Source: Fidelibacterota bacterium (GTDB taxonomy: Bacteria; Pseudomonadota; Alphaproteobacteria; Rhodospirillales; Rhodospirillaceae). Taken from it: 38,268 nucleotides of DNA. Of this stretch, positions 6,341 through 32,917 are shown piece after piece. Position numbers and translations under genes: made by a program. Location of the stretch: assembly GCA_947470105.1 (NCBI GenBank), contig CANISR010000012.1:1-38268 (forward strand), in the 5' to 3' direction. A model generated the notes under the pieces. It was not told the DNA's origin and ran no database searches. It saw nothing but the letters and a program-made list of their open reading frames with translations. The first letter of the stretch is position 1, and each line of letters opens with the position of its first letter.

Positions 6341-7459
6341 TTATTGTCCGCCGGCGGCGCGTTGATCGACCGGTTTGGCGCCGGGCGTGGGCGCAGCGTC
6401 AGCCACGCTCTTTTCGGGGTGCAGGATGAAGGCCTGCGCGAACTTCATCTCGGCGGCGGCAGAGATGGCGGTCATCTTGCCGTCCGGCCCAGGATAGGCG
6501 TCGGCGAGCTTGCGCATGGCGCGGGTGATGGACGGGATCGACATCTGGCCGTAGCTGGAGTGGTGGGTCGACCAGTTGATCGTGAACCTGTGCTGCCAGT
6601 CCTTAACGTCCACATAGCCGCCGAGCAGCCCTTCGGCCGAGTTCTCCGTGAGACGCAACTGGAACTTCGCCTGCTTGAACCCCTGGTCGGGATTGGTGTC
6701 GAAGGTCAGCGCCCAGGGCAGCTTGATGTCTGAGGCTTCGGTGGTGAGCACGCCGTCGACGATCTTGCCCTTGAGGCGGTGGATGTAGCGCTTGCCCCAG
6801 CGGTCATCGATTCGCTGGGTGCCGCCGGCGATGAAGTCCTTGCCGTTGGCGCTGGTCAGCAGTCCGTCGAGCCCGCGGTAGGTGGTTACTGTCACGTCAT
6901 TGTCGTTGGTGAGGTCGTCGACGTCGGTGATCTCGAGCAGCACGCGGTTGAAGATGTACCGCTGCATGTAATCGTTCTCGAAGAAGTAGTTGGCGCCGTC
7001 GGGGCCGCGGAAGCCGGGCACGCAGCCCAGCACGCGGTACAATTCATTGTCGATGCCGGTGTCGCCACGCGGCCCGGAGAAATCCTTGGAGCCGATTTTG
7101 CCGTCGAGGTTCAAGCCCAGGGCCATCTTGCCCGCGGCATAGCGGAACGGCAGCGGGCCTTTGTCGGTCTCGGGCTCGTTCTCGTTGGGGAACCAGATGT
7201 CGGCTTCGCGTGCCAGGTGAGTTTCGAGCAACGTGCGCTGCTTGCCGTCGTCGGGATACAGGGCTTTGAACTGCTCGCGCGGGCCGTCGTTGAGGCCGGC
7301 GGGGCACTCGGTTTTTCCGTCCGGGGTCTGGTAGACCGCCCAGGACTTGTTGGTCAGCACATAGCCGATGGTGCGGTTGGTGATGCCCTCCGCGGAGGCT
7401 GCCAAGGGAACTGCGGCCACGGCCGCGGCCAGCGCGGAAAGGCGCACGAATTTATGCAT
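6341..7459 (-). CDS. Unrecognised secreted protein, last gene of the PSD/HXXSHH operon
   Basis: A 372-residue exported protein whose family I do not recognise. The signal peptide is at residues 1-23 (MHKF..., ending LAASAEG). The mature part is rich in Asp, Gly and aromatic residues and has only two cysteines (TECPAGLN and LGCVPGF), which could form one disulfide. The segment LLEITDVDDLTNDNDVTVTT looks beta-rich. The second half has WQHRFTINWSTHHSSYGQM, where His-His could bind metal. Several starts are possible. The ATG at 7459 is preferred because GGAG lies 9 bases upstream and the signal peptide begins there. The upstream gene ends 14 bases away. The operon context suggests it works with the other three exported proteins. 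Confidence 0.8.
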   Translation of the reverse strand: MHKFVRLSALAAAVAAVPLAASAEGITNRTIGYVLTNKSWAVYQTPDGKTECPAGLNDGPREQFKALYPDDGKQRTLLETHLAREADIWFPNENEPETDKGPLPFRYAAGKMALGLNLDGKIGSKDFSGPRGDTGIDNELYRVLGCVPGFRGPDGANYFFENDYMQRYIFNRVLLEITDVDDLTNDNDVTVTTYRGLDGLLTSANGKDFIAGGTQRIDDRWGKRYIHRLKGKIVDGVLTTEASDIKLPWALTFDTNPDQGFKQAKFQLRLTENSAEGLLGGYVDVKDWQHRFTINWSTHHSSYGQMSIPSITRAMRKLADAYPGPDGKMTAISAAAEMKFAQAFILHPEKSVADAAPTPGAKPVDQRAAGGQ

Positions 7460-7473
7460 CACATTCATCTCCA

Positions 7474-8826
7474 TCAACCCGCGTTCGAATAGAAGTCGTC
7501 CCGCAGCCAGTAGGCCTTGAAGCCGTTGCGGAAGCCGAAGAATTCGCCCCAGGCGTCGCCTTCGACATCGCCGACGGCATCGCGCTCAAAGTTATAAACC
7601 GGGCGTCCGCGATAGGCCCACACCCGCATGGCATTGGCCTGATCCGGCGTCGCGTAATGGCCGCTCAGAGGATCGATGTCGATGGGGGTCCAGGTTTTGT
7701 TGGGCGCCTTGGCGTCCTTCGCGGCGGCAACGGGCCGCCATGTCTTGAGACAGCGCGCGGCGTCGCCGCCGCCGCACACGGCGAGGCGGTATTCCTGCGG
7801 ACTGGTCGGGTGATCGCAGGTCTGCTGGTCGAGGGCGTCGTCACCGCAGGTGTAGAGGTAGATGGTCTTGCCGGCCGCGTCGGCCAGGACGATGCCGCCG
7901 TGGCTCTCCTGCTGGGTGAATTCCTTGGGCCAGGCGGGGGCCCGCTGGGTGTAAACGTTGTGCCAGCCGGGCTCATCGGTGCCGAGCATATTCTTGGGGC
8001 GGCCATCAGCGATGAAGGTGTAGAGCGGCTTCTTGCGGAACGACCACTGCCGCACCCCCGGCGAGCGCTGGATGATGGTCCATTCGCCCTGGGGCTGCGA
8101 GGTTTCCGCCGCCAGCACCGGGCTCCACTTCTTGAGGCAGCCCGCGTCGCAGTTGGATTTGTCGGCGCCGTCGCCGTCCCAGGCGTAGACCGAGAAGCCG
8201 GCGAAATTCACCAGCATGCGCCCGGTGTTCATTTGGCGGATCTCGAAGGCCGGGGGGATGTTGGGATGGGGGCCGATGGGCTCGCGGATGCCGGGGCCGT
8301 CGCCGCGGGCCCTGCGGTTGGTCCCGCCGATGACATCGCCGGGGGCGGTGTCGAGCGTCGAGGTGTAAAGCGGATAGCCGTCATAGGCCCATTGCGGCGC
8401 GCCGTCCTTGCGGGCGATCACCGTCCATTTGCCGACCGGGCTGGCGTCCTTGCCGGCCAGCACCGGAGGCCATACCTCCTGGCAGCTCTTGCGGGTGGCG
8501 GCGTCCGGCAGGATGAGACCGGCGGGGTAGGGGCTCATGAGCCCCGAGTTCACTTTGTAGACTTCGGAAGTGCAGGCCGAAGGCGCGTTCTTGCGGTCGC
8601 CCACATCCCCATTGCGTAAGCCCTTCAACGGCCAGCTATAGAGCGTCTTGCCGGCGGCATCGGTGAACACAGGTCCTTCGACCTCGTTGACGACTACGCC
8701 GAAGCCCGGCGGCATGGGTTCAGGAAGATAACCTTCGCGCTCCACCACAGCACGCTGCGCGCCCGCCGGGCTTGCGCTGAGGAGCAGAGCGGCGAACAGG
8801 CCGCTCAGAACATGATGTGCCCGCAC
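7474..8826 (-). CDS. Secreted protein with three PF03640-type repeats
   Basis: A 450-residue exported protein. After a signal peptide (ending SASPAGAQ) it carries three copies of the 'secreted repeat of unknown function' seen in COG4315 lipoproteins. Each copy has the order G-K-T-x-Y, Cys pair, W-x-P-V, W-T-x-I, W-x-(Y/F)-x-x-x-P-(V/L)-Y. Examples are GKTLYSWPL, then EVWPPVLAG, then WTVIARKDGAPQWAYDGYPLY. Copies 2 and 3 are more cysteine-rich (CDAGC; YTCGDD...QQTC). The start is GTG at 8826, with AAGGAA about 9 bases upstream and only 11 bases after the previous stop. In other bacteria such repeats accompany electron-transfer or exported proteins, but their function is unknown. Confidence 0.85.
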   Translation of the reverse strand: MRAHHVLSGLFAALLLSASPAGAQRAVVEREGYLPEPMPPGFGVVVNEVEGPVFTDAAGKTLYSWPLKGLRNGDVGDRKNAPSACTSEVYKVNSGLMSPYPAGLILPDAATRKSCQEVWPPVLAGKDASPVGKWTVIARKDGAPQWAYDGYPLYTSTLDTAPGDVIGGTNRRARGDGPGIREPIGPHPNIPPAFEIRQMNTGRMLVNFAGFSVYAWDGDGADKSNCDAGCLKKWSPVLAAETSQPQGEWTIIQRSPGVRQWSFRKKPLYTFIADGRPKNMLGTDEPGWHNVYTQRAPAWPKEFTQQESHGGIVLADAAGKTIYLYTCGDDALDQQTCDHPTSPQEYRLAVCGGGDAARCLKTWRPVAAAKDAKAPNKTWTPIDIDPLSGHYATPDQANAMRVWAYRGRPVYNFERDAVGDVEGDAWGEFFGFRNGFKAYWLRDDFYSNAG

Positions 8827-8837
8827 AGTAGGTTTCC

Positions 8838-10190
8838 TTAAGCCAGGATTTCGCCGATGGCCTTGTTGGTGTTGTTGCTCTTGGTGCCCCACTCCTTCAC
8901 CTGCAGGCCCATGACCTGCATGGCGGTGAATCCGAGGCGGGTGGCGGGGCTGCCGGCGCCGTCGATATGCAGGCCGCTCTTGAGCTTGCCGCCGGCACGG
9001 CCGGCCGTGAACATCGGCATGCCGTCGAGGGAGTGGACGCGGGCGTAACCATGATCCGTGATCGCGTGGATGAAGACGTTATCGAGCACGGTGCCGTCGC
9101 CTTCCTTCACTTTGCTGAAGGCCTGCACGTAGTAGGCCCATTCCTCCATGGCGCGGCGGGTGAACCACGAGGCGTTGGGCTGATAGCCCAGGGTGTCATC
9201 CACAGCTTCTTCATGGGTGCAGGTGTGGTGCGGCTTCTCGTAGCCGGGCTTGATCGTGGAAGATGACGCCGCCGCGTAGGCCATGTTGAACACGCGGGTC
9301 TGATCGCAGGCCACCGCCATGACCATGATATCGGTCATGAGCCGGTGCCGCGCCGAGACCATTTCGGCAGCACCCCCCATGGCGCCGTCTTCCTTGGGCG
9401 CCTTCACCGGCACGCAGGCGGCGCGCGGCTCGGGCTTGGTGAGCTGCTGGTCAAGCTGCTTCTCGATATGGCGCAGACCGCTGAGGTACTGGTCGACACG
9501 GGCCTTGTCCTCGGCGCCGACGCGGGATTCCACGCGTTTGACGTCGTCCATGACCGCCGACAGCACGCTCTTGCGCACCATGGCCTTGGGGTTCGGCTTG
9601 AACTCCTTGGCGTTCGGGTCCTGGAACTCCGGCCCGAACAGGCGGGTATAAAACTGCGTCGGCGACCACTCCGGCGTCGTCGGCGTGGTCTGGTTCTCAT
9701 AGGAATAAGTCGTACGCACGTCGCCCGTGGCCGTGGCCGTGAGCGTCTTGAACCGGGTCTTGCGGCTGACTTCGTTGGCGATGGTGATGTCGATGGACTC
9801 TCCGGGCTTGTCGCCGGCGGTCTGGGGTGTCGACCCGCTCATCTGAATCACCCAGCCGGTGTAGTGGCACAGGTTCTGATAGGTGTCGCGGAAGGCGGTG
9901 AAATTGGTAAGAAGGTTGATCCGGTCCCGTACCGGCGCCAGCATGGCGATCTCCTCGGGGAGATCGAAGCCGGCGCCGCGCTTCTTGGGGACGAAAATCT
10001 TGGACGACATGCCTAGCCCCCAGAACCAGGTGCCGTAGCGCACCGGCAGGGGCGACCCGTCGGCCATGGCGTTGCCATTGCCGTTGAGGAACACGTCCAG
10101 CAGCGGCAAGGCCACCGTGACCGCCGAACCGTTCAACATGCCCTTGAGCATGCGGCGGCGGTTCAGGAGGGAGATGAGGAAAGAGTCCAT
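8838..10190 (-). CDS. DUF1552 (HXXSHH-family) exported protein
   Basis: A 450-residue exported protein. Its N-terminus, LLNRRRMLKGMLNGSAVTVALPLL, is a Tat-like signal (paired Arg, then a hydrophobic stretch), so it is probably exported folded. The body matches the DUF1552 family: the early GTWFWGLGMSSKIFVP and INLLTNF, then PGESIDITIANEV, the VDQYLSGLRHIEKQL helix, and the end GMPMFTAGRAGGKLKSGLHI. The family is named for an H-x-x-S-H-H motif. The matching place here, about residue 320, reads HHTCTHE, a variant. The start at 10190 has GGAG 6 bases upstream; a longer form could start at 10205. It is encoded directly after the PSD-type lipoprotein, the usual partner. Confidence 0.88.
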   Translation of the reverse strand: MDSFLISLLNRRRMLKGMLNGSAVTVALPLLDVFLNGNGNAMADGSPLPVRYGTWFWGLGMSSKIFVPKKRGAGFDLPEEIAMLAPVRDRINLLTNFTAFRDTYQNLCHYTGWVIQMSGSTPQTAGDKPGESIDITIANEVSRKTRFKTLTATATGDVRTTYSYENQTTPTTPEWSPTQFYTRLFGPEFQDPNAKEFKPNPKAMVRKSVLSAVMDDVKRVESRVGAEDKARVDQYLSGLRHIEKQLDQQLTKPEPRAACVPVKAPKEDGAMGGAAEMVSARHRLMTDIMVMAVACDQTRVFNMAYAAASSSTIKPGYEKPHHTCTHEEAVDDTLGYQPNASWFTRRAMEEWAYYVQAFSKVKEGDGTVLDNVFIHAITDHGYARVHSLDGMPMFTAGRAGGKLKSGLHIDGAGSPATRLGFTAMQVMGLQVKEWGTKSNNTNKAIGEILA

Positions 10191-10201
10191 TTTGTACTCC
10201 A

Positions 10202-11917
10202 TCATTTCGCGGATGATTTAAGCGCGGTGCGCGCCTCGTTTTTCGCAGCGGGGGGAGCTTCCACCGCCGAGAACGCGGTGCTTAGGGCGATGGTGCGCAG
10301 AAGTGTCGGGAAGCGGTAGCCGCTGGCCGCGAACTGCGCGTTCAAATAGGCCAGCATGGGCCTGGCGGCGTCGGTGACGGAGCCGCCGGAGCCGTAGCTG
10401 AAAGTCCGCTCTACCAGGCACGTGGGCAGCGACGGGTGGTCGTGCAGGGCCTGGCCCAGGCCCACGACGTTGGTGAAGGCTTTGCCATCCAGACTGCCGC
10501 TGGCGTCGATGGCCTCGCCTTTTTCGGTGGTGCGGAACTTGCCCGAGCCGTCGAAATTCTCGAGCGCCAAGCCCATGGGATCAGTGATCTTGTGGCAGCC
10601 GGCGCAGACCGGATTGGCGAGGTGCAAGTTTACCCGCTCGCGCTGGGTCTTGATGTTGGACTTGGGATTCTCGACCGCCGAGAAGTCCACATTGGCGGGC
10701 GGCCGCGGCACCGCTTGGCACAGCAGCAGTTCACGCAAGGCCTTGCCGCGCAACGTTGGCGAACTGCGGCCCGGATGCGAATGCACCGCGAGGAAGCTGA
10801 TGTGGGTAAGGATGCCAGTGCGCGGACTTTCGGCCGGGAACTCGTAAGGCACCCAGCCGCGTCCGGCGGGTACGCCGTAGATCGGCGCGAGTGCTGTCGA
10901 GATGAAGGTTTTGCGCGTGGTGTAGAGGTCGCGGTAGTCGCCGTTGTTGGTGACCAGGTGATCGACGATGGTGCGCAGGGTCTGCTCGCGGGCATCGGCG
11001 GCGGTGGCGCCGGTGAACGACGGATAGGTCTCGGCGTCCTTCGAAAGTGTGGCGAAGTCGTCGAAGCCGAACATGTCGTCGAAGAAGGCGCGCACGCCGG
11101 ATTCAACCCGCGGGCTGGCCAGCATCATTTCGACCACGCGGGCGCGGCCCTTGGGTGTCTGCAATTCGCCGCGGGCGGCGGCGTCCAGCAGCGCGCTGTC
11201 CGGCCCGGCGTTCCACAGGAACAGGCTGAGACGGGTGGCGAGCGAATAGGCCTCCAGCCGCTGATGGCCGGGGCGCGCGGGGTCGGCTTCGGTGGTCTCG
11301 GCGATCAGCAGCATCTCGGGGCTGAGCAGCATGCCCTCCAATGCGTAGGCCAATCCGGCGTAGAAATCCTTGAAGCGCACCGCGGCCTCATTGGCTTCCT
11401 TGACCAGAGCTTCGGATTGATCCGGCGCCAGCGGGTGGCGATAGAGAAGCCGGCCGATGGCGGGCAGGAATTTGCCCGCACAGGCCGCGTCGGCGGCTTT
11501 GTCGTCCTTGGGCTTGCACGGAATCAGGAACGTGCGGTGGGTTGCATTGGTGACCTCGGAGGCCACCAGGGACGCGGTGCGTTGATACTGCTCGAGCTGA
11601 GAGTCACTGACGCCGGCGACGGCGGCGCCGTTGCCGAGCAGGCCGGTCGTGCGCACCAGCGGCGGGAAGCGGGTGTCGAACTTGAGGTCCGGCCCGAAAA
11701 TATTGGCGAGCGTGTTGGTGTACTGCTGCGCGCTCATGACCCGAAGACGTCGCGGCGTAGCGACGTCGGCAGGCGCGGAGGCGTCGCTCGAAGTGGCGCC
11801 CGCAGCGACCTTGGGGGCAGCGCGCCCAGCGGAGGTCGTAGAAGAGGGCGCCGAGCACCCCGCGGCGATCACGGCGCAAAAGGCTACGGAGAGAATTCTT
11901 GAATATACGCGCAACAC
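10202..11917 (-). CDS. PSD/DUF1592-DUF1588-DUF1585 lipoprotein with CXXCH motif
   Basis: A 571-residue exported lipoprotein. The lipobox is VIAAGC near residue 21. The order follows the planctomycete-type PSD family: an N-terminal PSD3-like part (RRLRVMSAQQYTNTLANIFG), DUF1592 (SLATRLSLFLWNAGPD), DUF1588 with HSHPGRSSPTLRGKALRELLLC, and DUF1585 (CLVERTFSYGSG). A single c-type haem motif, CAGCH, lies at residues 438-442 in the conserved context NPVCAGCHKITDPMGLALENFD. Haem binding is likely for the family but not proven. The start is GTG 11917 or TTG 11914, both behind AGGGAG. It is the first gene of the four-gene exported operon. Confidence 0.88.
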   Translation of the reverse strand: MLRVYSRILSVAFCAVIAAGCSAPSSTTSAGRAAPKVAAGATSSDASAPADVATPRRLRVMSAQQYTNTLANIFGPDLKFDTRFPPLVRTTGLLGNGAAVAGVSDSQLEQYQRTASLVASEVTNATHRTFLIPCKPKDDKAADAACAGKFLPAIGRLLYRHPLAPDQSEALVKEANEAAVRFKDFYAGLAYALEGMLLSPEMLLIAETTEADPARPGHQRLEAYSLATRLSLFLWNAGPDSALLDAAARGELQTPKGRARVVEMMLASPRVESGVRAFFDDMFGFDDFATLSKDAETYPSFTGATAADAREQTLRTIVDHLVTNNGDYRDLYTTRKTFISTALAPIYGVPAGRGWVPYEFPAESPRTGILTHISFLAVHSHPGRSSPTLRGKALRELLLCQAVPRPPANVDFSAVENPKSNIKTQRERVNLHLANPVCAGCHKITDPMGLALENFDGSGKFRTTEKGEAIDASGSLDGKAFTNVVGLGQALHDHPSLPTCLVERTFSYGSGGSVTDAARPMLAYLNAQFAASGYRFPTLLRTIALSTAFSAVEAPPAAKNEARTALKSSAK

Positions 11918-11963: not shown

Positions 11964-11981
11964 TATATGATGCATTATATA
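11964..11981. promoter_or_regulatory. AT-rich palindrome overlapping a -10-like element before the exported operon
   Basis: An 18-bp near-perfect palindrome, TATATGATG/CATTATATA (one mismatch per arm), stands out in GC-rich DNA 47-64 bases before the PSD lipoprotein gene. On the minus strand it contains TATAAT. A second small inverted repeat (GAGGT, CATC, ACCTC) lies beside it at about 11990-12003. It is probably promoter plus operator. Confidence 0.4.
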
Positions 11982-12135
11982 TCAAGCGGGAGGTCATCAC
12001 CTCTCCGAACGGCCTCCGAGAACTAAAAGGCGAAAAACGGCCCCAAGTCGCCATATCGCACCGCACCATAGCCGCACCTGAAAATAGCCGGCGGCGCGAC
12101 TCGAACTGTGGGGGCTTTTCATGAAGGCGGACGAA

Positions 12136-14806: not shown

Positions 14807-15499
14807 GTGTCGCATCTCCTCCTCATCGAAGACGATTCCGATCTCGCAAGCGGCCTCAATGCGTCGCTGGCCCAGTCCGGCTACGACGTGACGCATCTCA
14901 CCAACGGCAACGAAGCCGTGGCCGCCTGCAACGGCTCCAACTACGACGTGGTGGTGCTGGACCTAGGGTTGCCCGATATCGACGGCATCGAAGCCCTGAA
15001 GCGCATGCGTGAGCAAGGCCTGCGCGCGCCGGTGCTGATCCTCACCGCCCGCGACGGCCTCAAGGACCGGGTCAACGGCCTCGACGCCGGCGCCGACGAT
15101 TATCTCGGCAAGCCCTTCGAACTCATGGAGCTGGAGGCGCGCGTGCGCGCGCTGTTGCGCCGGACGCGTGCGGGCGACGCCGAGCAGATGAAGTTCGGCT
15201 CCATCAGCTTCGACAGCACCGAGCGCCAAATGTTCGTCAACGGCAAGCCGCTCCTGCTCACCGCCCGCGAGATCGCGGTGCTCGAAGCGCTGCTGGCCAA
15301 GGCCGGGCGCATCGTCAGCAAGGAAAACATCTTTAGCTCGATCTATGAACTGGAGAGCGACGCGAGCACCTCGGCGATCGAGGTTTACGTCAGCCGCGTG
15401 CGCAAGAAACTCGACGCCGCCGGCGCCGGCGTGGGGATCCGCGTTCTGCGGGGCCTGGGCTACCGGCTGGAGCTGGCCGAGGAAGCCCTTAGTGCTTAA
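14807..15499 (+). CDS. OmpR/PhoB-family response regulator
   Basis: A 230-residue two-component transcription factor. The receiver domain is at residues 1-115, with the acidic pocket IEDD, phosphoacceptor Asp52 (VVLDLGLPD) and Lys102 (LGKPFE). The C-terminal OmpR-type winged helix (about 130-225) has LLLTAREIAVLEALLAKAGRIVSKE and the recognition helix SAIEVYVSRVRKKL followed by IRVLRGLGYRL. The start is GTG at 14807. It is encoded 12 bases before its histidine kinase. Confidence 0.93.
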   Translation: MSHLLLIEDDSDLASGLNASLAQSGYDVTHLTNGNEAVAACNGSNYDVVVLDLGLPDIDGIEALKRMREQGLRAPVLILTARDGLKDRVNGLDAGADDYLGKPFELMELEARVRALLRRTRAGDAEQMKFGSISFDSTERQMFVNGKPLLLTAREIAVLEALLAKAGRIVSKENIFSSIYELESDASTSAIEVYVSRVRKKLDAAGAGVGIRVLRGLGYRLELAEEALSA

Positions 15500-15511
15500 A
15501 GCAGCCATCGC

Positions 15512-16945
15512 ATGATCGAACTGCGGCCCGATAGTTTAAGACGGAGGCTTCTCGTCCGGCTATCGGTGCCGCTGCTTGGTCTCATGCTGGTGGGCGCGGT
15601 CTTGTCGTTCGGGGCAGCGCGCTATTTCGCCGCCATGGTGCACGACCAGTGGCTCTATGACTCCGCCATGTCGCTGGCGTCGCAGATCGGCCAGATCGAG
15701 GGGCAGGCCGCGTTGGACCTGACCGATCAGGCGGTCCAGATGTTCGAGTGGGACCACACCGACCGCATCTATTACGAAGTGGCAGGTCCGCTGGGCCACA
15801 TCTTCGGCAACACCGTCGTGCCGTTGCGGCCCGAGGTCACAGCCAATCCGCAGCCTGGCGTGCCGCGCTATTTCGCGACCGTGGTGGAGGGCATTCCCGT
15901 CCGTGCCGCCACCATCTTTGTGACCGGCGCCGGCGGCCAGCCGGTGACCGTGACGGTGGCCGAGACCCTGGCCAAGCGCGATACCGTGGTGCGCCACATC
16001 ATGGTGGCCATGCTGCCGTTGGAGGCGGGGTTTCTGCTGATCGCCGGCGCGCTGATCTGGTTCACGGTTACTACTACCTTGCGCAGCCTCGACACCTTGT
16101 CGCAGCGTATCGCCGGGCTGGACGCCGACCGGTTGGAACCGGTGTCGGATGTGTCCGACGTGCCGGCGGAAGTGGGCCCGCTTGTGAACGCGCTCAACCA
16201 GCTCATCGCGCGCCTTGCCAACGTCACGGAAGCGCAGCGGCGCTTCGTCGCCAATGCAGCCCACCAACTGCGCACGCCGCTCGCCGCCATGCAGGTCCAG
16301 ACCCAGCGCGCGCTGCGCGAGGCGGACCCGGCGCGCCAGGCGTCGGCGTTGGCGGATATTCAAAAGGCGATGGTGCGCCTCAAGCATATGACCCAGCAGT
16401 TGCTGAGCCTGGCGCGGGCCGAGCACGAGCCGGGGCGGACCCTGGAAATGCAGGATCTGGACTTGGCGGCGCTGACGCGCGATGCGCTGGAGCCACTGGC
16501 AGACGCCGCCATCGCCAGGTCCATGGACCTCGGCTACGACGGACCGTCCATCGGTGTATGGATTAAGGCCGAACCGCAGTTGCTGCGTGAACTGATCGCC
16601 AACCTGGTGGACAACGCCATCCGCTATGGCCGCATGGGCGGCATGGTCACCGCGCGCGTGACGCGGGCGCCCCTCTCCATCGCGGTGGAAGATGATGGCC
16701 CCGGCATTCCCGACGCCGAACGCGCTCACGTGACCGAGCGGTTTTACCGCCTGTCGTCGAGCCCGGCGGGGGGTAGTGGTCTCGGCCTGTCGATCGCGTC
16801 CGAAATTGCCGCGCGCCATAACGCGACCTTGACCATCACGACACCGCCCAGCGGGTGCGGGACTCTGGTCACGATTACGTTTTCCGGCATGGAGAGCGCG
16901 AGCCCACCGCAAACCGCGCCGCCGCGCGCGGCCGCGGCGGAGTGA
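15512..16945 (+). CDS. TctE/QseC-type sensor histidine kinase
   Basis: A 477-residue inner-membrane sensor kinase. Transmembrane helix 1 is about residues 15-40. A periplasmic sensor domain of the 2CSK_N kind spans about 41-165 (WLYDSAMSLASQI is typical), helix 2 about 167-190, then a HAMP-like linker. The dimerisation helix has phospho-acceptor His251 in NAAHQLRTPLA. The ATPase domain has NLVDNAIRYG, EDDGPGIP and GGSGLGLSIA. TctE-type kinases usually sense small carboxylates, but no transporter gene is adjacent, so the signal is unknown. A Pro/Ala-rich tail follows the catalytic domain. Confidence 0.93.
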   Translation: MIELRPDSLRRRLLVRLSVPLLGLMLVGAVLSFGAARYFAAMVHDQWLYDSAMSLASQIGQIEGQAALDLTDQAVQMFEWDHTDRIYYEVAGPLGHIFGNTVVPLRPEVTANPQPGVPRYFATVVEGIPVRAATIFVTGAGGQPVTVTVAETLAKRDTVVRHIMVAMLPLEAGFLLIAGALIWFTVTTTLRSLDTLSQRIAGLDADRLEPVSDVSDVPAEVGPLVNALNQLIARLANVTEAQRRFVANAAHQLRTPLAAMQVQTQRALREADPARQASALADIQKAMVRLKHMTQQLLSLARAEHEPGRTLEMQDLDLAALTRDALEPLADAAIARSMDLGYDGPSIGVWIKAEPQLLRELIANLVDNAIRYGRMGGMVTARVTRAPLSIAVEDDGPGIPDAERAHVTERFYRLSSSPAGGSGLGLSIASEIAARHNATLTITTPPSGCGTLVTITFSGMESASPPQTAPPRAAAAE

Positions 16946-27942: not shown

Positions 27943-29223
27943 ATGACCAAACCCGTTTCCAAGGCCAAACCCGCGCCCGCTCCTGTAGCAGGCCACAATG
28001 CCGTTCCATTGAAACTCCGGGTTCCAGAACCCAAGGCGCGCCCTGGGCAACCCGCCGACTTCAGCCATATGACTTTCCCCGCAGCGGGTGCCACGCGCCG
28101 GCCGGATGTGTCCTCCAAATCCGATGATATGCGCGACCTGGCCTACGGCCTCGTGCGCGTGCTCGACGAAAGCGGCACAGCCGTCGGCCCGTGGGCGCCC
28201 AAGATCGACCCGGAAGTCATGAAGCGCGGCCTGCGCGTCATGATGATGTGCCGTGTGTATGACGACCGCATGTACCGCGCCCAGCGCCAGGGCAAGACGT
28301 CGTTCTACATGAAGGGCACCGGCGAAGAGGCGGTGACCGCAGCCGCGGCCCTCGCACTCGACGATTCCGACATGCTGTTCCCGGCGTACCGTCAGCCCGG
28401 CCTGTTGTTCGTGCGCAACTGGCCCATGCTCGACATGATGAACCAGATTTACTCCAACGCCGGCGACCGCCTCAAAGGCCGCCAGTTGCCGGTGATGTAT
28501 TCCGCCAAGGACGCGGGCTTCTTCTCCATCTCCGGCAACCTCGCCACCCAGTTCGCCCAAGCGGTAGGCTGGGCCATGGCGTCCGCGATCTCCGGCGACA
28601 CCCGTATCTGCGCCACCTGGATCGGCGACGGCTCCACGGCCGAAGGCGACTTCCACCACGCGCTCACGTTTGCATCGGTCTACAAGGCGCCGGTGATCCT
28701 CAACATTACCAATAACCAGTGGGCCATATCGTCCTTCCAAGGCATCGCCGGCGGCGGCGAAGCGCCGTTCGCAGCCCGCGGCATCGGCTACGGCCTGCCG
28801 TCCTTACGCATCGACGGCAACGACTTCCTCGCGGTCTACGCCGCCACCCAATGGGCCGCCGAGCGGGCGCGCACCAATCAGGGCGCCACGTTGATCGAGC
28901 ATTTCACCTACCGCATGGAAGGCCACTCCACCTCGGACGACCCCTCGCGCTACCGCGCGGCGGACGAACGCCAGAAGTGGCCCCTCGGCGATCCCATTGA
29001 GCGCCTGAAGCAGCACCTCATCAAGCTCGGCCACTGGTCCGAGAAGGAGCATGTGCAGCAGCAGGAAGACCTCGAGAAGGAAGTGAAGGACACGCAGCGC
29101 CAGGCCGAGGCCATCGGCACGCTGCAGTCCGGCGAGAAGCCGCACCCCAGCACGATGTTCGAGGATGTCTACAAGGAACCCGATCAGCGCCTGCGCAAGC
29201 AGCGCCAGCAGTTTGGATTTTAA
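27943..29223 (+). CDS. bkdA1: Branched-chain 2-oxoacid dehydrogenase E1 alpha subunit
   Basis: A 426-residue subunit of the complex that oxidatively decarboxylates the 2-oxoacids of Val, Leu and Ile. With E1 beta it binds thiamine diphosphate: the motif GDGSTAEGDFHHALTFASVYKAPVILNITNNQWA runs from the GDG at about residue 228 to the Asn-Asn. YRMEGHSTSDDPSRYR matches the phosphorylation-loop region of the family. An N-terminal extension of about 50 residues (KLRVPEPKARPGQPADFSHM) is typical of the branched-chain enzyme and not of pyruvate dehydrogenase. It is the first gene of a four-gene operon. Confidence 0.94.
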   Translation: MTKPVSKAKPAPAPVAGHNAVPLKLRVPEPKARPGQPADFSHMTFPAAGATRRPDVSSKSDDMRDLAYGLVRVLDESGTAVGPWAPKIDPEVMKRGLRVMMMCRVYDDRMYRAQRQGKTSFYMKGTGEEAVTAAAALALDDSDMLFPAYRQPGLLFVRNWPMLDMMNQIYSNAGDRLKGRQLPVMYSAKDAGFFSISGNLATQFAQAVGWAMASAISGDTRICATWIGDGSTAEGDFHHALTFASVYKAPVILNITNNQWAISSFQGIAGGGEAPFAARGIGYGLPSLRIDGNDFLAVYAATQWAAERARTNQGATLIEHFTYRMEGHSTSDDPSRYRAADERQKWPLGDPIERLKQHLIKLGHWSEKEHVQQQEDLEKEVKDTQRQAEAIGTLQSGEKPHPSTMFEDVYKEPDQRLRKQRQQFGF

Positions 29224-29226
29224 AAC

Positions 29227-30240
29227 ATGTCATCCATGAACATGATTCAGGCCATCAACTCCGCCCATGCGGTGATGATGGAAAAAGACCCCAAGGTCGT
29301 CGTGTTCGGCGAGGACGTGGGCTATTTCGGCGGCGTGTTCCGCGCCACCGAGGGCCTGCAGGCCAAGTTCGGCATCAACCGCTGCTTCGATGCGCCGATC
29401 TCAGAAGGCGGCATCGTTGCTGCGGCCATCGGCATGGGTGCTTACGGACTGCGCCCGCTGATCGAGATCCAGTTTGCCGACTATATCTATCCGGCCTTTG
29501 ACCAGCTCACGTCCGAAGCCGCGCGTCTGCGCTATCGTTCGGGCGGCGAGTTCACGGCGCCCTTGACCGTGCGGACGCCTTACGGCGGCGGCATCTTCGG
29601 CGGCCAGACCCACAGCCAGAGCCCCGAGGCCCTGTTCACCCATGTGGTGGGCCTGAAGGTCGTGGTGCCGTCCACGCCTTATGACGCCAAGGGCCTGCTC
29701 ATCTCCTCGGTCGAGGACGACGACCCGGTGATCTTCCTGGAACCCAAGCGCCTCTACACCGGCCCGTTCGAGGGGCACTCCACCGATGGTGTGAAGACCT
29801 GGGCCGGGCATCCGGCCGGCGAAGTGCCGGACGGCCATTACAATGTGCCGCTCGGCAAGGCGAACATCGTGCGCGAAGGCAACGCCATGACCGTGCTGTG
29901 CTACGGCACCATGGTCCATGTGGCCCTGGCGGCGACGCGCGAGACCGGCATCGACGCCGAGGTGGTGGACCTGCGCTCGCTGGTGCCCCTGGACGCCGAG
30001 ACCATCATCGCCTCGGTCAACAAGACCGGCCGCTGCCTGGTGGTGCATGAGGCTACCTACACCTCGGGCTTTGGCGCGGAACTGGCGGCCATCGTGCAAC
30101 AGGAATGCTTCTATAATCTCGAAGCCCCCATCGACCGCGTTTGTGGCTGGGACACGCCCTATCCGCATGTGTTCGAGTGGCAGTACTTCCCGGGCCCCGA
30201 CCGTGTCGGCGCGGCCATGAAAAAGATGATGGAGGCCTGA
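29227..30240 (+). CDS. bkdA2: Branched-chain 2-oxoacid dehydrogenase E1 beta subunit
   Basis: A 337-residue partner of E1 alpha. It carries the transketolase-like pyrimidine-binding domain (VVVFGEDVGYFGGVFRATEGL, RCFDAPISEGGIVAAAIGMGAYG, EIQFADYIYPAFDQ), then the C-terminal domain with VVDLRSLVPLDAETI and LVVHEATYTSGFGAEL. It starts three bases after the stop of the E1-alpha gene, so the two are likely made in equal amounts. Confidence 0.94.
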   Translation: MSSMNMIQAINSAHAVMMEKDPKVVVFGEDVGYFGGVFRATEGLQAKFGINRCFDAPISEGGIVAAAIGMGAYGLRPLIEIQFADYIYPAFDQLTSEAARLRYRSGGEFTAPLTVRTPYGGGIFGGQTHSQSPEALFTHVVGLKVVVPSTPYDAKGLLISSVEDDDPVIFLEPKRLYTGPFEGHSTDGVKTWAGHPAGEVPDGHYNVPLGKANIVREGNAMTVLCYGTMVHVALAATRETGIDAEVVDLRSLVPLDAETIIASVNKTGRCLVVHEATYTSGFGAELAAIVQQECFYNLEAPIDRVCGWDTPYPHVFEWQYFPGPDRVGAAMKKMMEA

Positions 30241-30244
30241 GACC

Positions 30245-31510
30245 ATGGGCGCATTTCAATTCAAGCTGCCCGACATCGGCGAAGGCACTGCCGAGGCTGA
30301 AATCGTCGCCTGGCACGTGAAAGTCGGCGACAAGGTCAAGGAAGACCAGCCGCTAGTGGACATGATGACCGACAAGGCCACGGTGGAGCTGAGCAGCCCC
30401 GTGGAAGGCATCGTCCAAAGTCTGGGCGGCGAAATCGGCAAGAAAGCGGCAGTGGGGTCCGTGCTGGTGACCTTGGCAACCGAAGGCGGTGCTGATCTGC
30501 CTGCTGAAAAGCCCAAAGCTGCCGCACCCGTGCCCGTTGCCGCACCGGCGCCTGCGCCGAAGACAGAAGCAGCACCAGCACCCGCGAAAGTGTCCGCGCC
30601 GGTGGCTGAAGCGCAAGCCCCCAAGCACACAGCACCCGGCACGCGTCCCGCCGCATCGCCGGCGGTGCGCCGTCGCGCCGATGAACTCGGCATCAAGCTG
30701 CAATACGTGGCGGGCACGGGCCCGCAAGGCCGCATCACCCACACCGACCTCGATGCCTTCGTGAGCAGCGGCGGCAAAGGAGCGGTTGTTGCGCGCGGCA
30801 AGACCCAGCGCACCACTGTCACCGACATTCCCGTCATTGGCATGCGCCGCCAGATCGCCGAGCGCATGCAGCTCGCCAAGCGCCAGATCCCGCATTTCAC
30901 TTACGTCGAAGAAGTGGACATGACGGCGGTGGACGAGCTGCGCGCTGTCATGAACGCCGGGAAGAAGAAGGAGCAGCCGAAACTCACCGTGCTGCCGTTC
31001 TTCATGCTGACGATGGCCAAGGCGCTGGAGGACTTCCCCCAGATCAACGCGCTCTATGACGATGAAGCCGGGGTCGTGCACCGCCACGCCGGCGTGCACA
31101 TCGGCATGGCCGCCCAGACCGACAAAGGCCTCATGGTGCCGGTGGTGCGCCATGTGGAAGCCCGCGACATCTGGGACCTGGCCGAGGAAATCGGCCGCCT
31201 CGCGACCGCTGCCCGCGACGGAAAAGCCAAGCGCGAGGAACTGATGGGTTCCACCATCACGCTCACCAGTCTGGGCACCTTGGGCGGGGTGGTCGCAACA
31301 CCCGTCATCAACCGTCCGGAAGTGGGCATCATCTGCCCCAACAAGATCATAGACCGCCCGGTGGTGAAGAACGGTCAGATCGTGGTGCGCAAGATGATGA
31401 ACCTGAGCTCGTCCTTCGACCACCGCGTCGTCGACGGCGCCGATGCCGCTGCCTTCATACAGCGCATGAAAACGCTGCTGGAACAGCCCGCACTCATCTT
31501 TATGCCTTAA
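30245..31510 (+). CDS. bkdB: Branched-chain 2-oxoacid dehydrogenase E2 (dihydrolipoyl acyltransferase)
   Basis: A 421-residue core enzyme that passes the acyl group to CoA. It has one lipoyl domain at residues 1-80 with lipoylated Lys44 in MMTDKATVEL. An Ala/Pro-rich linker follows (about 85-135), then a peripheral-subunit-binding domain (AVRRRADELGIKLQYVAGTGPQGRITHTDLDAF). The C-terminal catalytic domain has the active-site motif DHRVVDGAD. The single lipoyl domain fits BCKDH better than the multi-lipoyl pyruvate enzyme. It begins four bases after the E1-beta stop. Confidence 0.95.
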   Translation: MGAFQFKLPDIGEGTAEAEIVAWHVKVGDKVKEDQPLVDMMTDKATVELSSPVEGIVQSLGGEIGKKAAVGSVLVTLATEGGADLPAEKPKAAAPVPVAAPAPAPKTEAAPAPAKVSAPVAEAQAPKHTAPGTRPAASPAVRRRADELGIKLQYVAGTGPQGRITHTDLDAFVSSGGKGAVVARGKTQRTTVTDIPVIGMRRQIAERMQLAKRQIPHFTYVEEVDMTAVDELRAVMNAGKKKEQPKLTVLPFFMLTMAKALEDFPQINALYDDEAGVVHRHAGVHIGMAAQTDKGLMVPVVRHVEARDIWDLAEEIGRLATAARDGKAKREELMGSTITLTSLGTLGGVVATPVINRPEVGIICPNKIIDRPVVKNGQIVVRKMMNLSSSFDHRVVDGADAAAFIQRMKTLLEQPALIFMP

Positions 31511-31522
31511 GGCCGATTTTAA

Positions 31523-32917
31523 ATGACCGAAACCATCACCACTAAAGTCCTCGTCGTCGGCGGGGGCCCCGGCGGCTATGTGGCGGCCATCCGCTGCGGG
31601 CAGCTTGGCCTCGAGACCGTGCTGGTCGAAGGCGACCGTCTCGGCGGCACCTGCCTGATCCGGGGCTGTATCCCGTCAAAGGCCATGATCCATGTGGCCG
31701 ACCGGTTTGCCGGAATGACCGCCGCCGTGGGCAAGGGCCATCACGGCATTTCGCTGTCCACCGCGCCCAAGCTCGACCTCGCCGCCACGGTGAAGTGGAA
31801 AGAGACCGTGGTGGATAAGCTCAATAGCGGCGTCACCGCATTGCTCAAGCGCGCCAAAGTGCGCGTGGTGGAAGGCTGGGGTGTGTTCTCCAACGCCAAG
31901 ACCTGCACCGTGAAGACCAAAGCCGGCGACGTGACCATTAAAGCCGAGTACGTCATCCTCGCCACAGGATCAGAACCGGTGGGCCTGCCCCATATTCCGT
32001 TCGGCGACGCTGTGATCTCCTCGACCGAGGCGCTGCTGCTGCAGGAAGTTCCCAAGAAGATGGTGGTGATCGGTGCAGGCTACATCGGCCTGGAGCTTGG
32101 CATTGCCTTCCGCAAGTTCGGCGCCGAAGTGACGGTGGTGGAAGCCCAGGACCGCATACTGCCGCTCTACGACCGCCAGCTCACCGCGCCGGTGGCCGCT
32201 TCGGTCGAGAAGCTTGGCATTAAAGTGATGCTCGGCGCCAAGGCCCAGGGCTTCAAGAACGGCAAGCTCGCCGTGGAAGACAAGGACGGCAAGACCAGCG
32301 AGATCGCCGCGGACTCCCTGCTGGTGACAGTCGGCCGCAAGCCGCGCACCGCGGGCTGGGGCATCGAGGCCATGAGCCTCGATATGAACGGCAAATTCGT
32401 GAAGGTGGACGACGCCTGCCGCACGCCCATGCAGGGCGTGTTCGCCATCGGCGACCTGGTGGGCGAGCCCATGCTGGAACACAAGGCCGCGGCCCAAGGC
32501 GAAATGGTCGCCGAAATCATCGCCGGCCATAAACGCCGCTTCGACCCCGCAGCCATCCCGGCCGTGTGCTTTACCGACCCCGAGATCGTCACGGCCGGCC
32601 TGACGCTGGAAGAGGCCGCCGCCAAAGGCATCGACGCCACCACCTCCATGTTCCCGCTCACGGCAAATGGGCGGGCGCTGTCCATGGACGCCGGCGAGGG
32701 CTTCGTACGCGTGGTCGCCCGCAAAGACGACAAACGCATCATCGGCATTCAGGCCGTCGGCGCTCATATCGCCGAACTGTCGGGTGAGTTCTCCATGGCC
32801 ATCGAAATGGCCGCGACCCTCGAGGACATGGCGGGGATCATCCACGCCCACCCGACCCTGAGCGAGGCGTTCTTCGAGGCGAGCTTGCGCGGGTTGGGGC
32901 ACGCCATCCACATTTAG
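31523..32917 (+). CDS. lpdA: Dihydrolipoyl dehydrogenase (E3)
   Basis: A 464-residue FAD flavoenzyme that reoxidises the lipoyl group with NAD+. It has the FAD-binding GGGPGGYVAAIR, redox-active Cys44 and Cys49 in GGTCLIRGCIPSK, the NAD-binding GAGYIGLELG, and the C-terminal catalytic His in IHAHPTLSEAF. The Leu-Ile-Arg replacing the usual Leu-Asn-Val between the cysteines is mildly unusual and recalls LpdV-type enzymes of branched-chain complexes. It is 12 bases after the E2 gene and closes the operon; no clear terminator follows. Confidence 0.96.
   Translation: MTETITTKVLVVGGGPGGYVAAIRCGQLGLETVLVEGDRLGGTCLIRGCIPSKAMIHVADRFAGMTAAVGKGHHGISLSTAPKLDLAATVKWKETVVDKLNSGVTALLKRAKVRVVEGWGVFSNAKTCTVKTKAGDVTIKAEYVILATGSEPVGLPHIPFGDAVISSTEALLLQEVPKKMVVIGAGYIGLELGIAFRKFGAEVTVVEAQDRILPLYDRQLTAPVAASVEKLGIKVMLGAKAQGFKNGKLAVEDKDGKTSEIAADSLLVTVGRKPRTAGWGIEAMSLDMNGKFVKVDDACRTPMQGVFAIGDLVGEPMLEHKAAAQGEMVAEIIAGHKRRFDPAAIPAVCFTDPEIVTAGLTLEEAAAKGIDATTSMFPLTANGRALSMDAGEGFVRVVARKDDKRIIGIQAVGAHIAELSGEFSMAIEMAATLEDMAGIIHAHPTLSEAFFEASLRGLGHAIHI

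Follow-up and report, generated by a model that had tools for sequence, protein, structure and literature searches.

The four genes at positions 6,341–11,917 of the window (the whole 38,268-nt stretch analysed) constitute a real operon of exported proteins. They belong, as one copy among many, to an extensive paralogous system, a conserved and co-diversifying unit that occurs in tens of copies per genome. Tens of paralogues share this gene order and other genera have it as well, so the layout cannot be attributed to chance. Guided by the genes found next to the copies, we propose, with confidence just short of even, that the operon is one version of a multi-copy, substrate-specific, TonB-linked periplasmic module.

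All four genes lie on the reverse strand. The sequence-only reading of this DNA had described them as separated by about 11–14 bases, and the open reading frames (ORFs) bear this out, with gaps of 11, 11 and 14 bases when the likely starts read from the ORF list (10190, 8826 and 7459) are used. The first gene, PSD (10202..11917), encodes a lipoprotein with a lipobox-like AAGC and the Pfam domains PSD3-PSD5-PSD4-PSCyt3-PSD2 (DUF1587/1595/1592/1588/1585) in that order, four of them above the curated cut-off and PSD5 slightly below it (33.3 against 34.2 bits). Its translation contains a lone c-type haem-attachment motif, CAGCH (10592..10606), in agreement with the single CXXCH reported earlier, and its closest relatives in our set are the PSD proteins of loci L009 (81%), L010 (80%) and L086 (71%). 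Since exactly one CxxCH was present in each of the 101 PSD proteins longer than 450 amino acids, PSD is likely to be a mono-haem c-type protein, as predicted from sequence, and a multihaem electron conduit of the Mtr-like type is unlikely. CxxCH was absent from the 95%-conserved columns of the other three families.

The second gene, HXXSHH (8838..10205, likely start MDSFL at 10190), matches PF07586 (DUF1552) at 168.3 bits against a cut-off of 30 and begins with a twin-arginine-like signal. The earlier assignment to DUF1552 with a Tat-like start therefore stands, but the literal HXXSHH motif is absent, its local form in the translation being HTCTHEE (9207..9227). Across the family, RR was invariant in 106/106 aligned members, Hxx[ST]H occurred in 112/112 and Hxx[ST]HE[E/D] in 105/112, and literal HxxSHH in none of the 112, the window protein included; judged by its profile match, the window protein is a family member with an altered name-giving motif. 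DUF1501 proteins accompany other PSCyt genes. HXXSHH resembles them weakly and locally around its segment LLDN...[TS][DE], but profile comparison by hhalign gave a relationship no support (probabilities of 0.7% and 0.1% over two runs, using the 17 of 20 DUF1501 loci that gave a usable ORF), and none of the 33 stretches in viral contigs that fit the HXXSHH pattern was a relative.

The third gene, REP (7474..8892, likely start GTG at 8826), encodes a protein with a Sec-type signal that matches PF03640 (Lipoprotein_15) at 4.6e-32 and 109.7 bits (cut-off 24.4). The match falls into four stretches, which the alignment suggests are three Cys-bearing modules, in keeping with the three cysteine-bearing secreted repeats first noticed. 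The same repeats are found in PF03640 lipoproteins of the SCO0930 family, and REP scores 92.9 bits to the NCBIfam SCO0930 model (NF040526); however, this is far under the equivalog cut-off of 275 bits, and REP sits inside a four-gene cassette. The fourth gene, UNK (6341..7477, likely start ATG at 7459), encodes an exported protein that had resisted placement and still does. Neither Pfam (E≤0.01) nor NCBIfam (E≤0.1) offered a matching family, and PDB sequences gave no match at E≤10, whether by single sequence or by profile. By these absences it appears to belong to a new protein family. Searches of PDB sequences with all four proteins, singly and as profiles, gave no credible relative (best E 0.089), and AlphaFold models of UNK (6 sequences, mean pLDDT 32.9) and HXXSHH (4 sequences, mean pLDDT 30.6) were unusable. 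An amidase gene (PF01425; 12149..13849, same strand) of lipoprotein type lies 231 bases upstream and is accessory, outside the core.

The host bacterium is known from environmental DNA only. Its 3.86-Mb draft genome contains 28 HXXSHH, 22 DUF1592 and 30 UNK matches (that of the window included) and at least 102 PF03640 repeats, which correspond to about thirty diverged paralogous cassettes whose core genes occupy approximately 3.8% of the genome; one copy-number search of this genome scored 150 of 200 candidates. UNK was found in each of the 18 further species searched within the genus (2–41 copies each), in 4/7 sister-genus genomes and in 5/384 genomes of a class-wide draw. In two of the searches, whose genome sets overlapped, no more than five candidates were scored from any one genome, and another search listed part of its matches. 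Within the genus, copy number rose with genome size (rho 0.75, n=19, uncorrected for descent).

The four genes are neighbours elsewhere too, in two orders: UNK-PSD-HXXSHH-REP and, as in the window, PSD-HXXSHH-REP-UNK. Among 101 HXXSHH genes from nine genomes or contigs, 51 lay in the former arrangement, 13 in the latter and 8 had UNK on both sides. Thirteen of the remaining 29 were truncated where a contig or region ended, 4 lay in PSD-HXXSHH-REP without an adjacent UNK and 12 were arranged otherwise, some of these through losses by the gene caller. Genes were called by our own script as long ORFs with high third-position GC, and ORFs on the opposite strand sometimes displaced core genes (among them REP on contig C157, UNK on C166 and one HXXSHH gene of G020, where 21/22 were kept), so the linkage counts are lower bounds. 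Because the loci of relatives were taken around HXXSHH matches (G003, G015, G019, G020, G022 and G024) or UNK matches (G286, G366, G139, G180 and G223), counts of linkage made from the other gene are biased for these genomes. Outside the family, all 9 loci taken around UNK matches of G286 and G366 had the order UNK-PSD-HXXSHH-REP.

Distances between copies of the partner genes were correlated over 67 complete cassettes (Mantel r 0.75–0.88), a set that comprised neither cassettes with UNK on both sides or without an adjacent UNK nor those that were cut, and the correlation held when permuted within genome and type. This co-diversification fits a functional unit as read from the sequences; such correlations are also expected from linked genes that are inherited jointly.

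TonB receptors were enriched around the cassettes. In G000, where the HXXSHH, PSD, UNK and two REP positions served as cassette marks and three distances were tried, 11/48 receptors lay within 3 kb of a cassette (3.3 expected, p 3e-4), 14/48 within 5 kb (4.1 expected, p 2.9e-5) and 16/48 within 8 kb (4.8 expected, p 1e-5). For three further genomes we used HXXSHH positions only, rounded genome sizes and two distances. In G020, 9/45 receptors lay within 5 kb (2.7 expected, p 0.001) and 15/45 within 8 kb (3.9 expected, p 3e-6); within 8 kb lay 6/29 receptors (1.5 expected, p 0.003) in G003 and 8/37 (2.9 expected, p 0.007) in G015; the 5-kb excess was not significant in G003 (3/29 against 1.1, p 0.1) or G015 (4/37 against 2.2, p 0.17). 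The receptors near cassettes come from two separate receptor clusters. Numerous cassettes have no close receptor, and the whole contig of the window contains no PF00593 match.

A comparison of labels between genes near to and far from cassettes, made without loci L009, L022 and L046, likewise gave TonB receptors in 30/249 near and 4/107 far genes, and NHL proteins in 12/249 and 1/107. The far set comprised 103 non-TonB proteins, 102 of which were annotated; the NHL protein omitted (L015:465-1625), which would weigh against NHL enrichment, is included in the label counts. Near annotation covered a random 133 of the 219 non-TonB genes, with the 25 commonest families listed. What else adjoins a cassette differs from one to the next; transporters, regulators of the LysR type and enzymes of oxidation or hydrolysis all occur. 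No strong upstream regulatory word common to the cassettes emerged among 7- and 8-mers in G000, G003, G015 and G020, and no consensus promoter was found. The amidase, NHL and CHRD partners vary between genera and the adjoining enzymes share no single chemistry, which counts against the module explanation: some of the adjacency may stem from insertion at random.

Starting from the observed gene unit, we infer a substrate, a redox chemistry and a physical complex. A TonB receptor would import a particular organic compound, oligomeric or slow to permeate, through the outer membrane. The exported proteins, acting at that membrane or in the periplasm, would bind the compound and process it. PSD would act as a mono-haem c-type oxidoreductase lipoprotein, HXXSHH as its Tat-exported partner or catalytic subunit, and REP and UNK as subunits for binding or scaffolding, and the products would pass to the varied catabolic genes alongside. 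Each cassette may serve a different compound, which would account for the deep divergence of the paralogues, the lack of a common upstream word and the rise of copy number with genome size.

An alternative that we regard as rather unlikely is that the cassettes build diversified structural complexes of the cell surface or envelope, for adhesion, matrix formation or surface variation, with the haem and HXXSHH proteins maturing or cross-linking them and the TonB receptors incidental. REP and UNK would suit this role: both are secreted, no catalytic signature is recognised in either, and they have diverged furthest, with mean distances of 0.66 and 0.68 compared with 0.52 and 0.53 for the other two. 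Half cassettes of REP-UNK without PSD-HXXSHH (contigs C148 and C42) point the same way, as does the CHRD-type protein that joins the cassette in sister genera (a cluster of 26, one member of which was Pfam-tested, with 22 directly adjacent). The receptor excess in four genomes argues against it, as do the many neighbours that are transporters, regulators or catabolic enzymes and the absence of pilin, S-layer and adhesin domains from the 25 families most frequent among 133 near neighbours. That the copies result largely from non-adaptive amplification of a mobile or recombining repeat family, with no distinct function per copy, seems very improbable: copies are many, some are tandem and contigs break inside them, but the reading frames are intact (an internal stop in 1/30 UNK and 0/28 HXXSHH matches of the window's genome), sister-genus copies interleave in a midpoint-rooted tree, whose branch support was not inspected, and the alignments show conserved His, Asp and Glu.

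We also give a low probability to a role in extracellular electron transfer, respiration or redox sensing, part of which the sequence-only reading had suggested. The conserved haem motif of PSD is compatible with it, and so are two kinds of neighbour seen at some cassettes, PQQ dehydrogenases (cluster of 5) and a cytochrome c in which two c-domain stretches occur (cluster of 3); in addition, the available part of a Pseudomonas putida design study, drawing on domain comparison, lists DUF1587, DUF1588, DUF1592 and DUF1595 with the domains of unknown function that should be added for anaerobic respiration (PMC7789669). Yet each PSD protein has a single CxxCH and the conserved columns of its partners have none, cytochromes are rare among the neighbour clusters annotated, and a generic conduit needs no thirty diverged copies. 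Similarly improbable is a module for acquiring peptides or amide compounds, in which amidase and peptidase neighbours would mark the substrate class and other members deliver. Amidases of the PF01425 type lie near the window cassette and several others of its genome, and S9 and M20 peptidases near some other cassettes; however, 8 of the 9 amidase-cluster members among the loci taken fall in the window's genome, where one is distant from any cassette, and the ninth is in G020, and other cassettes carry Rieske, P450, PQQ, FMN or molybdopterin enzymes instead.

If the module explanation is true, about 4% of the genome is an unrecognised system for processing organic matter, the function of which could be tested by pairing single cassettes with compounds. 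The lineage offers a handle on it, with a fixed four-gene unit that includes two additional partners (one of them a new family) and with genomes of 2–4 Mb, and the varied neighbours of each paralogue could hint at its substrate.

The cassette belongs to the 'planctomycete-specific cytochrome' kind. As far as the available portions of these sources go, PSD/PSCyt genes reach high copy number in some freshwater Verrucomicrobia genomes, with their function stated as unknown, and PSCyt proteins were proposed to act in the periplasm or cytoplasm on mono- or oligomers (He et al. 2017, PMC5615132), and a CBM2-bearing DUF1592 protein of Cellvibrio is tabulated in a study of a lignocellulose community (PMC6004670). 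The Verrucomicrobia system likewise has the PSCyt3 and PSD domains in one protein, in high copy and adjoining a conserved unknown family, which on the text available we take to be DUF1552/HXXSHH (PMC5615132). By comparison with that account, the cassettes here are in another lineage, have two more fixed partners (the PF03640 protein and UNK) and are enriched for TonB receptors nearby, with neither CBM nor sulfatase among the 25 families most frequent in 133 near neighbours.

SusCD-type polysaccharide utilisation loci are TonB-receptor-linked exported modules, many and paralogous in one genome, with varied accessory enzymes and regulators. The cassettes are also many, paralogous, exported and TonB-receptor-linked, with varied enzymes and regulators, but they differ in that the core consists of a haem-motif protein and HXXSHH and many cassettes lack a nearby receptor. 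They may differ too in their enzymes, as neither SusD nor glycoside hydrolases are in the 25 commonest near-neighbour families (133 neighbours annotated). The proposed module would work like such a locus, with a haem-protein complex replacing the glycoside hydrolases. We suggest tentatively, as a possibility well below even, that the four proteins form one periplasmic oxidative-processing complex, fed by TonB receptors and present in about thirty substrate-specific versions per genome, as a hitherto undescribed class of nutrient locus and a non-polysaccharide counterpart of Sus-type loci.

Four closely spaced genes occupy 6341–11917 of the minus strand and encode, in reading order, a lipoprotein (PSD) with PSD3, PSD5, PSD4, PSCyt3 and PSD2 domains (DUF1587/1595/1592/1588/1585) that has a single CAGCH motif, an HXXSHH-family protein (PF07586) whose start resembles a twin-arginine signal, a secreted protein (REP) whose PF03640 repeats we read as three cysteine-bearing modules, and an exported protein (UNK), the window copy of which had no Pfam or NCBIfam match. 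Measured from the likely starts, the genes are separated by 11, 11 and 14 bases, which confirms the genes, strand and spacing of the exported operon proposed by the sequence-only reading. Its term 'HXXSHH protein' held for the family and failed for the name-giving motif, which is HTCTHEE in the window copy; the literal motif was found in 0 of 112 family members of our set, and Hxx[ST]HE[E/D] in 105. Alignment of 106 HXXSHH proteins revealed strong conservation of His, Asp and Glu, with H114, H327, H331, E368, D375 and H391 invariant. All 101 PSD proteins longer than 450 aa had a single haem motif, and the two secreted proteins were the most variable of the four. Upstream of the operon lies an AT-rich near-palindrome around ATGCAT (11964–11984), words of which were absent upstream of the other cassettes of the same genome, bar one loose match. 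Elsewhere the window encodes a cpn60-family ORF of 559 aa (38–1717), a small secreted protein with a Rap1a-immunity-like domain (PF18602; 14059–14517) adjoining a two-component system (14807–16945), and four adjoining genes with 2-oxoacid dehydrogenase complex domains (E1 alpha, E1 beta, E2 and E3; 27943–32917).

The cassette occurs in two orders, UNK-PSD-HXXSHH-REP (type B) and PSD-HXXSHH-REP-UNK (type A, that of the window). Among 101 HXXSHH genes sampled from seven genomes and two titled contigs, 51 lay in type B and 13 in type A cassettes, 8 had UNK on both sides, 4 lay in PSD-HXXSHH-REP sets cut by a contig or region end and 4 in such sets without an adjoining UNK, 9 were otherwise end-cut and 12 showed other arrangements. 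Fewer than 60 bases separated 198 of the 201 pairs of neighbouring core genes in the 67 complete cassettes. We found PSD or HXXSHH within three genes of 106 of the 117 UNK genes that reach 250 aa, REP within the same distance of 97, and no core partner around 5, counts that are biased in the relatives because most loci there were fetched around HXXSHH. These data show a four-gene unit. Two half cassettes (L030:3926-6449 and L017:14687-17247, both fetched loci) consist of REP-UNK without PSD-HXXSHH and adjoin amidases or a TonB receptor.

The genome that the window comes from (3.86 Mb in 299 contigs, 94% complete) contained 28 matches to PF07586, 22 to PF07631, 30 to UNK (window copy counted) and at least 102 to the PF03640 repeat, with 150 of 200 candidates scored; some family matches are fragments at contig ends. 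PF07586, PF07631 and PF03640 had no match in 14 of 14 well-known control genomes. Core genes totalled 147.6 kb, or 3.8% of the genome, summed over the window itself plus 34 of the 36 stretches fetched from this genome (L022 and L046, with only a small REP-like ORF, were excluded). The four-gene system is real, conserved and strikingly amplified.

The UNK profile was present in all 18 other searched species of the window's genus (2–41 copies) and in four of six genomes from the family's other genera (3, 27, 6 and 7 copies; none in two); it was absent from one further genus of the family and from 16 of 16 genomes of other families in the order. A class-wide draw gave matches in 5 of 384 other genomes, and a phylum-wide draw in 1 of 397, a genome already among those five. 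Copy number rose with genome size (rho 0.75, p 0.0002, 19 species; rho 0.88 in the 13 species at least 90% complete; kinship ignored in both). Of the five genomes matched in the class-wide draw, G286 and G366 had the full cassette in all nine loci fetched around UNK, G139 and G223 had UNK-PSD-HXXSHH without REP, and in G180 two genes separated UNK from HXXSHH-PSD; because of these arrangements, UNK-PSD-HXXSHH may be an older core to which REP was added. When HXXSHH, PSD and UNK proteins were joined and placed in a midpoint-rooted tree, paralogues from four sister-genus genomes (G019, G020, G022 and G024) interleaved, which suggests that many copies predate those genera. Most type A cassettes, though not all, fell in a single clade of the window's genus. 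A contig titled Candidatus Marinimicrobia (CANJOI010000188.1) carried close relatives (HXXSHH 88%, PSD 81%) whose order matches that in the Rhodospirillaceae-titled locus L010, and is perhaps mislabelled or mis-binned.

Pairwise distances of the four proteins correlated across 67 cassettes (r 0.75–0.88, p 0.0005), which shows co-diversification. Linked inheritance alone would be expected to give some of this correlation, which was weaker when the own genome's six type A cassettes were taken alone (r 0.41–0.70, p 0.0065–0.08) and persisted across the set under shuffling within genome and type.

TonB-dependent receptors (PF00593) were enriched near cassettes. In the own genome, 11, 14 and 16 of 48 receptors lay within 3, 5 and 8 kb, respectively (4.1 expected within 5 kb, p 2.9e-5), and G020, which belongs to another genus and whose receptors form a separate cluster, had 9 of 45 within 5 kb (2.7 expected, p 0.001). 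The 5-kb excess was not significant in two other genomes, G003 (3 of 29 versus 1.1, p 0.1) and G015 (4 of 37 versus 2.2, p 0.17); at 8 kb it was significant in both (6 of 29, p 0.003; 8 of 37, p 0.007). Of 249 genes no more than two positions from a core gene, 30 were receptors, versus 4 of 107 genes five or more positions away. The window's contig had no receptor match anywhere; in L010, a close relative of its cassette (HXXSHH 89% identical) comes after a receptor-like ORF and a pair of REP and UNK genes; the own-genome counterpart of this pair lies beside a receptor on contig C42.

No single chemistry predominates among the other neighbours. A lipoprotein amidase lies upstream of the window's cassette, and S9 and M20 peptidases, amidases, alpha/beta hydrolases, metallo-beta-lactamase-fold proteins, LysR regulators and transporters occur near others, as do VanA-type Rieske oxygenase, P450, luciferase-like monooxygenases, PQQ and FMN dehydrogenases, and molybdopterin enzymes, one resembling pyrogallol hydroxytransferase. 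In the window's genus we found a 15-member cluster of NHL beta-propeller proteins, and G020 had one further ORF with an NHL label. Small exported proteins make up another cluster, of 26 members (for example, L053:9341-9856 in G020; one tested member is a CHRD protein), which spans four sister-genus genomes; 22 members directly adjoin a core gene, and loci fetched from the window's genus contained none. Separately, an exported family of about 158 aa (L086:3894-4367 and eight relatives, all in G015) lies near cassettes; the one member tested had no Pfam match.

Guided by export, the single haem motif, the conserved HXXSHH residues, the two variable secreted proteins and the nearby receptors, we propose that the cassette could encode a periplasmic or outer-membrane processing complex, each cassette with a distinct substrate. 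Haem binding, complex formation, oxidation and the substrates are steps that we infer, and we rate the chances of the mechanism as about even. Our searches of open-licence PubMed Central literature yielded no description of the four-gene cassette, and the portions of its full text retrieved gave no function for DUF1592, DUF1552/HXXSHH/PF07586, PF07631, PSCyt3, PF03640 or COG4315, nor, where two or more of them occur together, for DUF1501, DUF1553, DUF1549, PSCyt1, DUF1588 and DUF1585. In the excerpts retrieved, these families appear as table or list entries: a Cellvibrio DUF1592 protein bearing CBM2 in a lignocellulose table (PMC6004670), the DUF1552 protein RB9955 in an expression table for Rhodopirellula (PMC2754498), a PF03640 row in a modelling table (PMC8078820), and DUF1592 and its sister domains among those listed for anaerobic respiration (PMC7789669). 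In the same literature, planctomycete-specific, cytochrome and TonB-dependent occurred together only in a freshwater Verrucomicrobia study (PMC5615132), which states that nothing is known of PSCyt function and proposes that PSCyt genes act on mono- or oligomers, mirroring glycoside hydrolases. Our processing-complex view is related to that one. PSD and HXXSHH are partners of a known but unexplained kind, here joined by a PF03640 protein and a new family, UNK.
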